Below are positions 1 through 8,588 of a stretch of 64,000 bases of DNA, piece by piece (positions within the stretch are counted from its first letter, which is position 1; each line of letters starts with the position of its first letter). Position numbers and translations under genes: made by a program. The notes below the pieces were generated by a model. It was not told the DNA's origin. It did no database searches and saw nothing but the letters and a program-made list of their open reading frames with translations. Origin of the DNA: Gluconobacter oxydans. GTDB lineage: Bacteria; Pseudomonadota; Alphaproteobacteria; Acetobacterales; Acetobacteraceae. The stretch is from the NCBI RefSeq assembly GCF_006539685.1, contig NZ_BJNM01000010.1, forward strand, positions 1-64,000, read 5' to 3'.

Positions 1-25
1 CCCATCAAACCCCGGGACCAAACAC

Positions 26-3000
26 CTAGCTATAAATCCTGAGCATAAAATTCAGGTCAGGGAGAGATTTTGTGTCGTGCAATAGCTTAGGAAAGCGGCA
101 ATGCCTTTTCTGAAGCATTGTGAGGAGCCAGTCCGAACTGCTGTTCCAGCATTGCACGATAGTGTTTCTGGCGGCTGATATGTGTTTCCGGAAGTGCCAG
201 GCGACTTGCCAGAAGGCGATGCATGTAGGCGACTTCGTCGATGTGGTTACGCCGGCTAAGTGTATGGGTGACTGAATCCCATGTCTCCGGTGCACATTGA
301 GTGGTTGAGCCAGATAGATGACCTCGACGTTTTTCTGCGTGAGCAGTTCAAGGTAAATGCGCCAGTCGCCTGCAACACGCAGGGTTTTCAGGTCTGTCTG
401 ACAACCATTGATCGCTGTCAGTAAATGTTTTTTTCGAAAAAGTGCACTACTGACGTTGAGGACAAGATTGCGTTCCGACAGGCAGCCCCGGAGAAAACTT
501 TCTCCTGTAAAATGACTGTCATTTTCCATCAGTAATCCTGCGCTCTCAGAGTAATAGGCCTGATAGGATGGAAAAATTGGAGCGCCGTCTTCGTCGACGG
601 CCCGGCTGTCCGTAAATGCCATGACGACAGCGGGCTTGTTCTTGATCCCGTCCAGAATACGTTCAAGAAATTCCGGTTCGCAGAAATCGTCCGCCTCGGC
701 AATCCAGATCCAGTCGCCACGTGCGATCCTGACGGCTTTGTGCCACTGCTTGAAGACCGAGCCTGAGGGGACAGTACTCTCGATGCAGATGGTTTCCCGA
801 TCCCAGTCTTTTGCCGTCTGTCGGGCAATTTCGAGGCTGTTATCGTCTGAGGCGTCGTCGAGCACGATGATCTCGAAGACCGGTACCGTCTGCGCAAAAA
901 TCGAAGAAAGGCGGCGGCTCATATAGTGAGCGTAGTTGTGTGAGGGGATGACGACGGAAATTTTCGGGATTGCGGGAAGGGCGAGGCTCAGAAGTTCCTG
1001 GGCATAATGTCTGAAGCTGAAGCGTTGTGCAGCCGCGCGAGCAATTTTCTGTCGTTCGCGGCGCGAGCGTTCTGCGGACCATGCCGCCAGTTTGTTTGCC
1101 GCGTTCGCCATCGCGGGTATATCCGCAAAGGGAACGATACTGTTGCGATGATCTGTTTCAGAAGTGATCTGTTGCAGGAGATCCGGAATTCCGCCGGTTT
1201 CCTCGAATGCAACACATGGTAGGCCGGCCGCCAAAGCTTCCAGGACGACTGATGGATACGGATCTTCGCGTGACGTGAGAGCAAAGACGTCTGCCGCAGC
1301 CAGCCATGCCGGCACATTGTCGACCCTGCCAGGCATGTGAAATGTGCCACTGGAGAGGGCGCCGTTCAGTTCGACATGCAGGTTGTTCTTCAGGGACGGG
1401 TCGATATCGCCCAGCCAGACACAGTGGACTGCGCCCTGCATTTTGCGCCAGAGCTGAAGGAAAAGGTCAAAGCCTTTACGCAGGTCTGCATAGCCGGCAC
1501 CGATAATGATCCGGTCAACTGTCCCAAGACCCATTTCCCTGCGGATTGTCAGTCGTGCCTGCAGTGAAAATGGCATCTCAGTGTAGAGACCCTGCGGCAG
1601 GATCTTCAGGTTGTTCAGGGGTGCCAGATCAAGTCTTTTCGCTACACTTTGCGCCGGTGCAATGACATGGCGTGCCAGCGTACAGGCCTTTTCCATGGGG
1701 GCGTGCAGGTTACGACTGCGTAGGAGCGCGGGAAGCTCATGAATGAGGAATAGAAAGCCGATATCCGCTTCCGCAAGGTGGGGCGCCAGGGCTGAACTGG
1801 CCGCACTGTTGAGGATTGCCGACTGAAATCCTTGCCGGCGGAGATACTCCAGACGCGCCGTAGTGGTTTTTGACTCCACCGTAACGATCTCTGTGGGTGC
1901 CACGTTACGATATTCGTCGAGGAGGGCGCCTCCGTCGAGGAGGAGAAACTGGATTTCAGCGCCAAAGCAGTGCTGCAGCGTGCGGCCGATTTCGAGCAGC
2001 AGCCGCTGTGCGCCTGCGGGAAACGCGTCATGTCCAATCAGAAGGATTCCGGATCGCGAGCGGTTTTTCCCGGCGCCGGTACAGGCGCGTGCCGTTGCGT
2101 TGAGATAGGCGCTTCCGAAATGCTGGTCCGGCTCCAGATAGGCGCCCTCGGCCCATTCATTCCAGGCGTTGATGCAGACGACCGGGTCTCCGAAAAACGT
2201 GCGGGACTGAGCCTGTTCGATCAGGCCGCTGAGCCAGCGTTCATAGAGTTCCGGTGTTGATCCATGCAGAACAAGGCCTTTGCCCTGCCGACGTGCATCA
2301 TTATCCCATGAAGGCGCTGCGGTCCTGATCAGGGGGAACGGTGTTCTGGGCTGGGCGAGGGCTTTATCCACCACTTCGCCGTAGTCATAGACCTGACCGC
2401 TGAAGTCATTATCGAACAGCGTGATTTCGTCATTGATCAGGTTGCAGTTCGAGACAACCTTGTGGGGTGGAAACTCGATGGCGCCATCCAGACCGAAGAG
2501 ATCGGGGTTCTCGTCACCGAAAGCCTGTCCCATGACAAAAAGCGGATCCAGCCCATGGCGGGTGCGAAACAGCTTACGCCACCGCACGAAGGCGGCTGGA
2601 GCATCGGGGATGGTCCCGGGCCGATAAACCATGAGCACTGGTCGGCCATCAAAATGGATGTAGCGTGCATCACGCAGATACCGGGCAAAGCAGTCCACGA
2701 GGGCCTCGTCGTCCTCGGAACGGTAATCCTGCGCGATCAGCAGGTCATCGGCTGATCCATCCCAGCGGCGGCTCCAGTTCTCGTTGGCCCACATAAGGCA
2801 GAACGGAAGATCGATCTGCGGGTTGGACAGCAGAATTTCCAGAGGCTGGTCCAGCAGGCGTTTGCGGTTGAACCAGTAGAAATAGAAAATGAAGCCTTCG
2901 ATCCCCGCGGCCTGAGCCATCGTAGCCTGCCGCTCGAGGATTTCGGGTGTGTTCAGGGTATAATGCCCCAGATCCCGTGGAATACGGGGCTGGTAATGGT

Positions 3001-3868
3001 CCGAAAAGCGCGGAATCCCTCGGGGCAGGTTGGTCCATTCCGTGAAACCTTCGCCCCACCAGGCGTCATTTTCGGGAATGGTATGAAACTGCGGCAGGTA
3101 ATAGGCCAGAATACGGGCGCGGCGGATAGCGCTTCGGGGTAACGGACGTGCTTTTTCAAAAAGTGGTCCTGGCTTGCTCCGACGCTTGATTTCACCAAAA
3201 ACCGATATCTCGGTTTCGGGACTGCATGGATGAATATCCGGCCGGTTACGGTTTTCCAGATAATGCAGCAGCGGATTGCTGTCCGGAGAATGCCGAAGGT
3301 ATTTCCGCCTGTAATAAAGGGGATCAAACCCGTCGAAAGGTTTGCGGGCCTCGCGAAACCCCTGAACCATGTAGTGCTCAAGCGCATCAAGGCCGGCTTT
3401 GGCGACGTCGGGATAGGCGCGCAGATAGAAGTCCGGATCGAACTCCGGGATCGGGCGTAGCGGCGTGTTGTGACGGTTCTTCAGGTAATGGGCGAGGGCC
3501 AGCATCCGTTCCGGGACGTGGTAGATCCGCGCGTACCACACCGGATCGAACCAGGCGATCGGACGGCGCCCCTCGCGTTCCCCGTGCAGGATATAATGCA
3601 GCAACGGATCACCGATGACGTCGCGGTTCTTGCTGAGATACCAGTGCGGATCAAAAAAGGGATTGGGTTTGCGACCCTCCCGCCATCCATGCTGATGATA
3701 ATGCCGGAGAACGGCGGTTCCGAGCGTGTGCAGGTCCGGGTTGGATTTCAGATAATAAAATGCGTCAAAAATGCCGGAATGCCCGAGAATCTGCAGGGGA
3801 GAGGCGTCAGCCGGAAACGGCGATATCCGTGAATCTTCAACAGAGGAATGTGAGAACGGATGCGGCAT
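26..3868 (-). CDS. Multidomain glycosyltransferase: FD repeats, GH99/WbsX-like, GT4 and GT2; probable 3' frameshift
   Basis: A 1280-residue open frame, likely acting in extracellular or O-polysaccharide assembly. Residues 34-215 hold five repeats of about 36 residues, each opening FD(P)xxY and usually closing HYxxxGxREGRxP. Residues about 251-595 are a WbsX/GH99-like domain (AYYLPQFH, WWGEGFTEWTN, WANENWSRRW, NAWNEWAEG). Residues about 606-960 resemble a GT4 glycosyltransferase (DVFALTSREDPYPSVVLEALAAG), and about 969 onward a GT2 domain (ISVVIPSHNYAHY, WIAEADDF). After the conserved HRRHG (about residue 1197) the open frame turns into atypical Trp/Cys-rich sequence, while another frame continues with a normal GT2-like tail and stops at 87-89. 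One base missing from the C run at 278-280 explains this. The intact protein would be about 1260 residues. Substrates are not predictable. The gene stands alone and is divergent from metX. Confidence 0.85.
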   Translation of the reverse strand: MPHPFSHSSVEDSRISPFPADASPLQILGHSGIFDAFYYLKSNPDLHTLGTAVLRHYHQHGWREGRKPNPFFDPHWYLSKNRDVIGDPLLHYILHGEREGRRPIAWFDPVWYARIYHVPERMLALAHYLKNRHNTPLRPIPEFDPDFYLRAYPDVAKAGLDALEHYMVQGFREARKPFDGFDPLYYRRKYLRHSPDSNPLLHYLENRNRPDIHPCSPETEISVFGEIKRRSKPGPLFEKARPLPRSAIRRARILAYYLPQFHTIPENDAWWGEGFTEWTNLPRGIPRFSDHYQPRIPRDLGHYTLNTPEILERQATMAQAAGIEGFIFYFYWFNRKRLLDQPLEILLSNPQIDLPFCLMWANENWSRRWDGSADDLLIAQDYRSEDDEALVDCFARYLRDARYIHFDGRPVLMVYRPGTIPDAPAAFVRWRKLFRTRHGLDPLFVMGQAFGDENPDLFGLDGAIEFPPHKVVSNCNLINDEITLFDNDFSGQVYDYGEVVDKALAQPRTPFPLIRTAAPSWDNDARRQGKGLVLHGSTPELYERWLSGLIEQAQSRTFFGDPVVCINAWNEWAEGAYLEPDQHFGSAYLNATARACTGAGKNRSRSGILLIGHDAFPAGAQRLLLEIGRTLQHCFGAEIQFLLLDGGALLDEYRNVAPTEIVTVESKTTTARLEYLRRQGFQSAILNSAASSALAPHLAEADIGFLFLIHELPALLRSRNLHAPMEKACTLARHVIAPAQSVAKRLDLAPLNNLKILPQGLYTEMPFSLQARLTIRREMGLGTVDRIIIGAGYADLRKGFDLFLQLWRKMQGAVHCVWLGDIDPSLKNNLHVELNGALSSGTFHMPGRVDNVPAWLAAADVFALTSREDPYPSVVLEALAAGLPCVAFEETGGIPDLLQQITSETDHRNSIVPFADIPAMANAANKLAAWSAERSRRERQKIARAAAQRFSFRHYAQELLSLALPAIPKISVVIPSHNYAHYMSRRLSSIFAQTVPVFEIIVLDDASDDNSLEIARQTAKDWDRETICIESTVPSGSVFKQWHKAVRIARGDWIWIAEADDFCEPEFLERILDGIKNKPAVVMAFTDSRAVDEDGAPIFPSYQAYYSESAGLLMENDSHFTGESFLRGCLSERNLVLNVSSALFRKKHLLTAINGCQTDLKTLRVAGDWRIYLELLTQKNVEVIYLAQPLNVHRRHGIQSPIHLAGVTTSTKSPTCIAFWQVAWHFRKHISAARNTIVQCWNSSSDWLLTMLQKRHCRFPKLLHDTKSLPDLNFMLRIYS

Positions 3869-4016
3869 GTATAACTTTTTTACGTTTTTTTAACTTTATT
3901 CAAGGTGTTAATTCATCGTCAATCCAAAAGGGGATTTGATCGTATCGGCAGGCAGTGCCATACCGTGGCGCCCGGGAGGCATGAGGCCTCAGTGTGGCAT
4001 CAGGGGTGTATCTGGG

Positions 4017-5207
4017 ATGGACATCAGCGCGTCACCGAGTATCGCGGATGGGCCGGTCTACACACATCAGACCGTGCGGCTGGACAGCGGTCTCGATCTG
4101 GAATGTGGCGTGCATCTGGCGCCGCTGGAGGTCGCCTACTGCACCTACGGCACGCTCTCACCAGCACGGGATAATGCGATCCTGGTCTGTCATGCCCTGA
4201 CGGGGGACCAGTACCTGGCGGAACGCAATCCCCTGACCGGCAAACCTGGCTGGTGGAGCAGGATGGTTGGGCCGGGGCTTCCGATCGATACGGATCGTTA
4301 TTTCGTCGTGTGCTCCAACGTCCTTGGCGGCTGCATGGGCACGACGGGACCGCGATCGATCTGTGCTGAGACGGGAAAGGCGTGGGACAGTGAGTTTCCG
4401 CCAATCACGATGCATGACATCGTGGCCGCGCAGGCGAAACTGATCGATCATCTGGGCATAGACCGTCTTTTCGCGGTCATCGGCGGTTCGATGGGCGGAA
4501 TGCAGGCGCTGACCTGGGCGGCGGATTTCCCGGACCGCGTGTTCGCTGCCATGCCGATCGCAACGTCGCCCTTCCATTCGGCCCAGAACATCGCATTCAA
4601 TGAAGTCAGCCGGCAGGCCATCTTTGCCGATCCGGACTGGCATGATGGCCATTACAGGGATTTCGGTGCCATTCCTGCCCGCGGACTGGGGGTGGCGCGC
4701 ATGATGGCGCATATCACCTATCTGTCCGAGGAAGCTCTCAGCCGCAAATTCGGACGGCGGGTCCGGCATGACGCGGCAACAGCGGTGCCCGCGTCCAGCA
4801 GTCCGTCGCTGTTCGGGGAAATGTTCGAAGTGGAGAGCTATCTGCGCCACCAGGGCTCATCGTTCGTGCGGCGCTTTGATGCCAATTCGTATCTGACGAT
4901 CACCCGGGCGATGGATTATTTCGATCTGGCCGCAGAACATGACGGTGATCTGGCCAACCCGTTCCGGAAATCGCAGACCCGTTTCTGTGTCGTGTCGTTC
5001 AGCTCGGACTGGCTGTTCCCGACGTCACAGTCCCGCCTTCTGGTGCGGGCACTCAACCGGGCAGGGGCGAACGTCTCTTTCGTGGAAATCGAGAGCGACC
5101 GCGGGCATGACGCCTTTCTGCTGGAGGAGCCGGACTTCGACCGGACCATCCGGGGTTTCATCGCAGGTGCGGCCGAACATGCGGCCCTTAAGGCGGGAGA
5201 ACGCTGA
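4017..5207 (+). CDS. metX: Homoserine O-acetyltransferase
   Basis: Cytosolic alpha/beta-hydrolase-fold enzyme that acylates homoserine with acetyl-CoA (some family members prefer succinyl-CoA), the first committed step of methionine synthesis. The 396-residue product has the family nucleophile elbow GGSMGGMQ with Ser at about 158, the early [12 protein letters not shown] and GGCMGTTGP stretches, and the catalytic Asp/His region [11 protein letters not shown] near the C terminus. The frame stays open upstream to 3936, but I start at the ATG at 4017 because homology-like sequence begins soon after it and an AGGGG lies about ten bases upstream. The ATG at 3981 is an alternative. The stop codon overlaps the start of metW, the usual metXW pairing. 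No SAM riboswitch was recognised in the leader. Confidence 0.93.
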
Positions 5208-8202: not shown

Positions 8203-8280
8203 GCATTCCAGACTGACAGCACGCAGTAAAATAATGCGTCCCGAGCGCGGTGGCGTGTTCGGAATTTTTTACGGGGAATG

Positions 8281-8370
8281 TGGCGGAGAGGGTGGGATTC
8301 GAACCCACGATACGCTCTCACGTATGGCGGTTTTCAAGACCGCTGCCTTAAACCACTCGGCCACCTCTCC
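8281..8370 (-). tRNA. tRNA-Ser (UGA)
   Basis: Read on the minus strand, a complete 90-nt type II tRNA with a long variable arm. The acceptor stem is GGAGAGG/CCTCTCC, the anticodon loop CTTGAAA has anticodon UGA, the T loop is TTCGAAT, and CCA is encoded (8281-8283). It decodes UCA and neighbouring serine codons. No integrase or repeat flanks it. Confidence 0.97.
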
Positions 8371-8444: not shown

Positions 8445-8588
8445 GGGGCCGTGTTACATAGGGGTGGGGGGGCTTACTTTTTGAAACGCAGAAGGGGGCG
8501 GTCAGCAACATTGAAACGTGCCATCTAGAAACGTATGGAGGCGTTTTGTGCGTCTCCGGCTGCCATAACCTCCAAGGATATGACGTCC

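Follow-up and report, generated by a model that had tools for sequence, protein, structure and literature searches.

Polysaccharide genes of acetic acid bacteria are known to acquire spontaneous frameshifts (PMC13068021) and to be inactivated by transposon insertion (PMC5553594). Multidomain glycosyltransferases of the WbsX/GT4/GT2 type (PF14307, PF13692/PF00534, PF00535) are also encoded on Bradyrhizobium plasmids, where they are annotated 'glycoside hydrolase family 99-like domain-containing protein'. The gene described here lies at one end of the window, i.e. the whole stretch of DNA that was analysed, comprising the first 64 kb of contig C10 of a draft genome of 2.7 Mb in 107 contigs. The window copy resembles these proteins over most of its length, homologues being 48% identical over residues 9-1217, but differs from its kin in being frameshifted at the C terminus, whereas every one of the 24 others in the genus is in frame.

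Domain make-up and reading frame of the glycosyltransferase gene

The features referred to below are as follows, with domain positions given for the 1280-aa product:

26..3868, minus strand: giant glycosyltransferase open reading frame as it stands, 1280 aa
aa 253-592: WbsX domain
aa 795-928: GT4 domain
aa 971-1093: GT2 domain
278..281, minus strand: one-base difference in DNA alignments; the window reads CATGGGATTC, the nearest species carry an extra base (GGAGAC or GGGGAC)
26..277, minus strand: shifted-frame tail, aa 1198-1280, stop TAG at 28-26, with no native-frame counterpart in any relative
87..278, minus strand: ancestral C-terminal coding segment, DSVTH...LPLS, stop TAA at 89-87, now out of frame and still conserved
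1..29, plus strand: end of an IS481-family element at the contig break, comprising the final transposase codons (..HQTPGPNT, stop) and the junction CTAG

WbsX, GT4 and GT2 all scored above the gathering score (PF14307, 424.5 bits; PF13692, 65.7 bits; PF00535, 86.0 bits), and by these Pfam assignments the predicted product of 3868..26 is a WbsX/GT4/GT2 multidomain glycosyltransferase. The catalytic GT2 core is intact and lies upstream of the frame change. In a PDB search carried out with this core only, it was aligned with chondroitin synthase, the best match (query 5-147 of 304), and with other proteins; the matches span the core alone, and no solved structure was informative about the role of the lost tail.

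The motif HRRH occupies residues 1193-1196 and is followed by one G and then by 83 residues in a changed frame. The first-pass annotation, which was made from the letters alone, had described a shift after HRRHG into a Trp- and Cys-rich tail ending at 26, and the composition bears this out, with 4.8% Trp and 3.6% Cys in the tail compared with 2.1% and 1.2% in the core. It had also placed the true tail in the other frame, which reads ..DSVTHTLSRRNHIDEVAYMHRLLASRLALPETHISRQKHYRAMLEQQFGLAPHNASEKALPLS up to the TAA stop at 89-87, and comparison of the C termini with homologues agreed with this assignment. Of the 26 congeneric genomes searched, the window genome included, 25 carry the gene, while the sole genome without it (G002) gave only weak matches to other glycosyltransferases. 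After HRRH, all 24 same-genus homologues from the other genomes follow the ancestral frame, an agreement far beyond chance, and none uses the frame that stops at 26. None of them has lost the pattern HRRHxxSx(T/S)(H/Y), even where identity in the GT2 domain falls to 47%; the L012 homologue leaves its contig before the stop codon. In the two nearest species (L010 and L011, with proteins 96% and 95% identical) the tails are nearly identical to the tail that is out of frame in the window. The segment HRRHxxSxTH...HxxE, a feature of the congeneric orthologues and not of the Pfam families, can still be read in the window DNA, though no longer in frame past HRRHG. The ancestral tail, 64 codons after HRRH that carry the SxTH...HxxE motif, is thus replaced by 83 unrelated residues. 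In the distant homologues L031 and L033 the motif region is kept although the tail after HRRH measures just 25 and 30 residues, so that the far end of the tail is dispensable in some relatives.

DNA alignment with six relatives contained a single gap at 278-281, in the window only. The site reads GGGGAC in L010, GGAGAC in L011 and L014, GGAGAT in L012 and GGGAT in the window, where the C run at 278-280 has three bases; more distant relatives read GCTGAT, GCCGAT and others. The proposal in the first-pass annotation that one G be added to the G run therefore holds in that one base is short at 278-281. Because the relatives read GGA-GA(T/C) or GGG-GAC, however, the missing base may be A or G, and G is only one of two equal readings.

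The IS481-family element at the contig end

At least 16 contigs of the window genome, C10 included, end in bases 1-29 (CCCATCAAACCCCGGGACCAAACACCTAG), whole or nearly so, and exact copies occur in Acetobacter pasteurianus LMG 1262 and Brytella acorum. In Brytella acorum the 29-base end supplies the final codons of a transposase, which scored 282.5 bits against the IS481 model (NCBIfam NF033577, cut-off 224); the model was run on this copy (L041), which has the identical end, the body of the window's own element being off the contig. The likeness to the IS481 family consists of this transposase score and of the CTAG at the window junction, a tetranucleotide seen at this end of the element in all eight contigs inspected; the difference from other family members is that the window holds the terminal 29 bases only, one end of its copy being on the contig. 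The break of the contig at window base 1 is explained by this multicopy element. The sharing of the 29-base end by at least 16 contigs and by the two other species suggests that the element is active or has spread horizontally in acetic acid bacteria. The far flank of the element was sought on contig C53 by way of the gene that lies downstream in G012. C53 matches G012 from 0.9 kb past this downstream gene, and no IS end was found at the matching edge, which lies inside the contig.

Disruption of the gene by the element was rejected, as about 58 bases separate the ancestral stop from the junction beyond it and the gene is uncut. The TAG that ends the shifted open reading frame (28-26) is located within the CTAG at the junction, about 60 bases past the old stop. 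CTAG is the usual pre-existing target of IS481. If it was so here, it predates the insertion, and the stop of the shifted frame need not come from the element.

Candidate origins of the missing base

In the ancestral frame, comparison of the tail with L047 (genome G012) gave 18 synonymous and 6 non-synonymous changes, for a dN/dS of 0.07, and comparison with L048 (genome G017) gave 12.5 and 8.5, for a dN/dS of 0.18. These ratios rest on small change counts and are similar to those of the remaining part of the gene (0.12 and 0.11, respectively). This shows that the abandoned tail is still under purifying selection, with no sign of decay, and therefore that the shift is either recent or not real, i.e. 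an isolated error. A recent one-base deletion, producing an ordinary loss-of-function frameshift in a WbsX/GT4/GT2 gene of an IS-rich genome, is probably the right explanation, judging from the comparisons made here.

Under the second reading the missing base would be an isolated artefact of the draft assembly and the gene of the living strain would be intact. A tail without decay in the ancestral frame fits such an error equally well, the contig ends within a multicopy IS 280 bases from the site, and the genome, the one of its species compared, is a draft of 107 contigs. To set against this, all 64 kb were aligned to the two nearest species, with which the window is almost fully collinear at 94-96% identity, and every non-triplet indel was listed. 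Indels in the same direction relative to both species occurred at five sites, the contexts of 3994, 8472, 28918 and 58695 being assigned by position and domain content:

279/281: within the glycosyltransferase gene
3994: ahead of the likely ATG of the metW-adjacent alpha/beta-hydrolase gene, probably metX
8472: in a G run between genes
28918: between an RNase H gene and an MFS gene
58695: upstream of mraZ

Only the indel at 279/281 is gene-internal, the other four being between or upstream of genes. On these alignments a systematically indel-prone assembly is excluded, because 64 kb hold no other gene-internal, window-specific frameshift, which argues for a low error rate. Also, the run has only 3 nt, and indel errors are uncommon in runs as short as this. 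An isolated error is accordingly considered rather unlikely, although it is the most serious competitor of the deletion.

The same alignments yielded some further observations. The listed start of the open reading frame 3936-5207, a TTG at 3936, is probably too far upstream, and the indel at 3994 precedes the likely true ATG. The intergenic run at 8466-8472 is the longest G/C run in the window, with seven G in the window, six in G012 and five in G017. At 8278-8294 collinearity with both G012 and G017 is lost; in G012 some 11 kb separates the flanking blocks, which in G017 fall on separate contigs, and about 11 kb of G012 is missing from the window at this point.

The first-pass annotation had named mutation, sequencing error and a phase-variable homopolymer as causes. 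Mutation and an isolated sequencing error are both still in play, but the third gained no support. Reversible slippage in the G run, turning the glycosyltransferase on and off, would be in keeping with the spontaneous and sometimes interconvertible colony types to which surface-polysaccharide genes of acetic acid bacteria give rise (PMC5553594), and the near species G017 has GGGG at the site. The run is, however, 3 nt long in the window, where 1562 G/C runs of this length occur, and at most 4 nt in any relative, most of which read GGAG, GCTG or GCCG, and all other genomes examined are in frame. A contingency locus would be marked by a long homopolymer or tandem repeat at the indel, conserved among strains or relatives; the locus has a 3-nt run that is not conserved. 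Phase variation was rejected on these grounds and is regarded as highly improbable.

A functional alternative C terminus or a programmed frameshift, with both frames in use, appears more improbable still. The shifted product is near normal in length, and in the two nearest species the shifted frame is open for 97 and 122 codons. In more distant relatives, however, the ancestral frame is the conserved one and the shifted frame runs for 3-50 codons (79 in L013) before a stop. Relatives reach the conserved tail without any shift, so that no recoding site is implied. A conserved alternative tail was rejected because the shifted frame closes in most relatives; its openness in the two nearest species is, as far as these alignments go, a matter of close descent and not of a conserved protein. 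That selection keeps the longer shifted C terminus, through a changed acceptor or localisation, or that the locus flips between frames, is likewise given very little credence.

Predicted consequences and relation to known systems

If a recent deletion is accepted, one base would have been lost in the last part of the WbsX/GT4/GT2 glycosyltransferase gene. Translation would be normal up to HRRH(G), residue 1197, after which 83 unrelated residues would displace the conserved 64-codon C terminus of the GT2 domain, and the shifted reading would end at a chance TAG in the CTAG of the IS481-family junction. As the lost SxTH...HxxE segment is conserved, the third, GT2 activity would probably be impaired or lost. 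The WbsX and GT4 domains might still be made, and the surface glycan could be shortened or absent.

The annotation needs correcting: family sequence does not extend into the final 83 residues of the predicted protein, and the gene is best regarded either as a probable pseudogene or as carrying a base to be re-checked. A real mutation may leave the strain with an altered surface glycan, a point relevant to comparisons of its physiology with that of its neighbours. No new mechanism is involved. The locus differs from the bcs genes of Komagataeibacter and gumD of Kozakia in that the IS of the window lies past the old stop and not in the gene, and in that the case is known from sequence alone; it resembles them in that, within the same bacterial group, a small indel or a mobile element damages a surface-polysaccharide gene (PMC13068021, PMC5553594).
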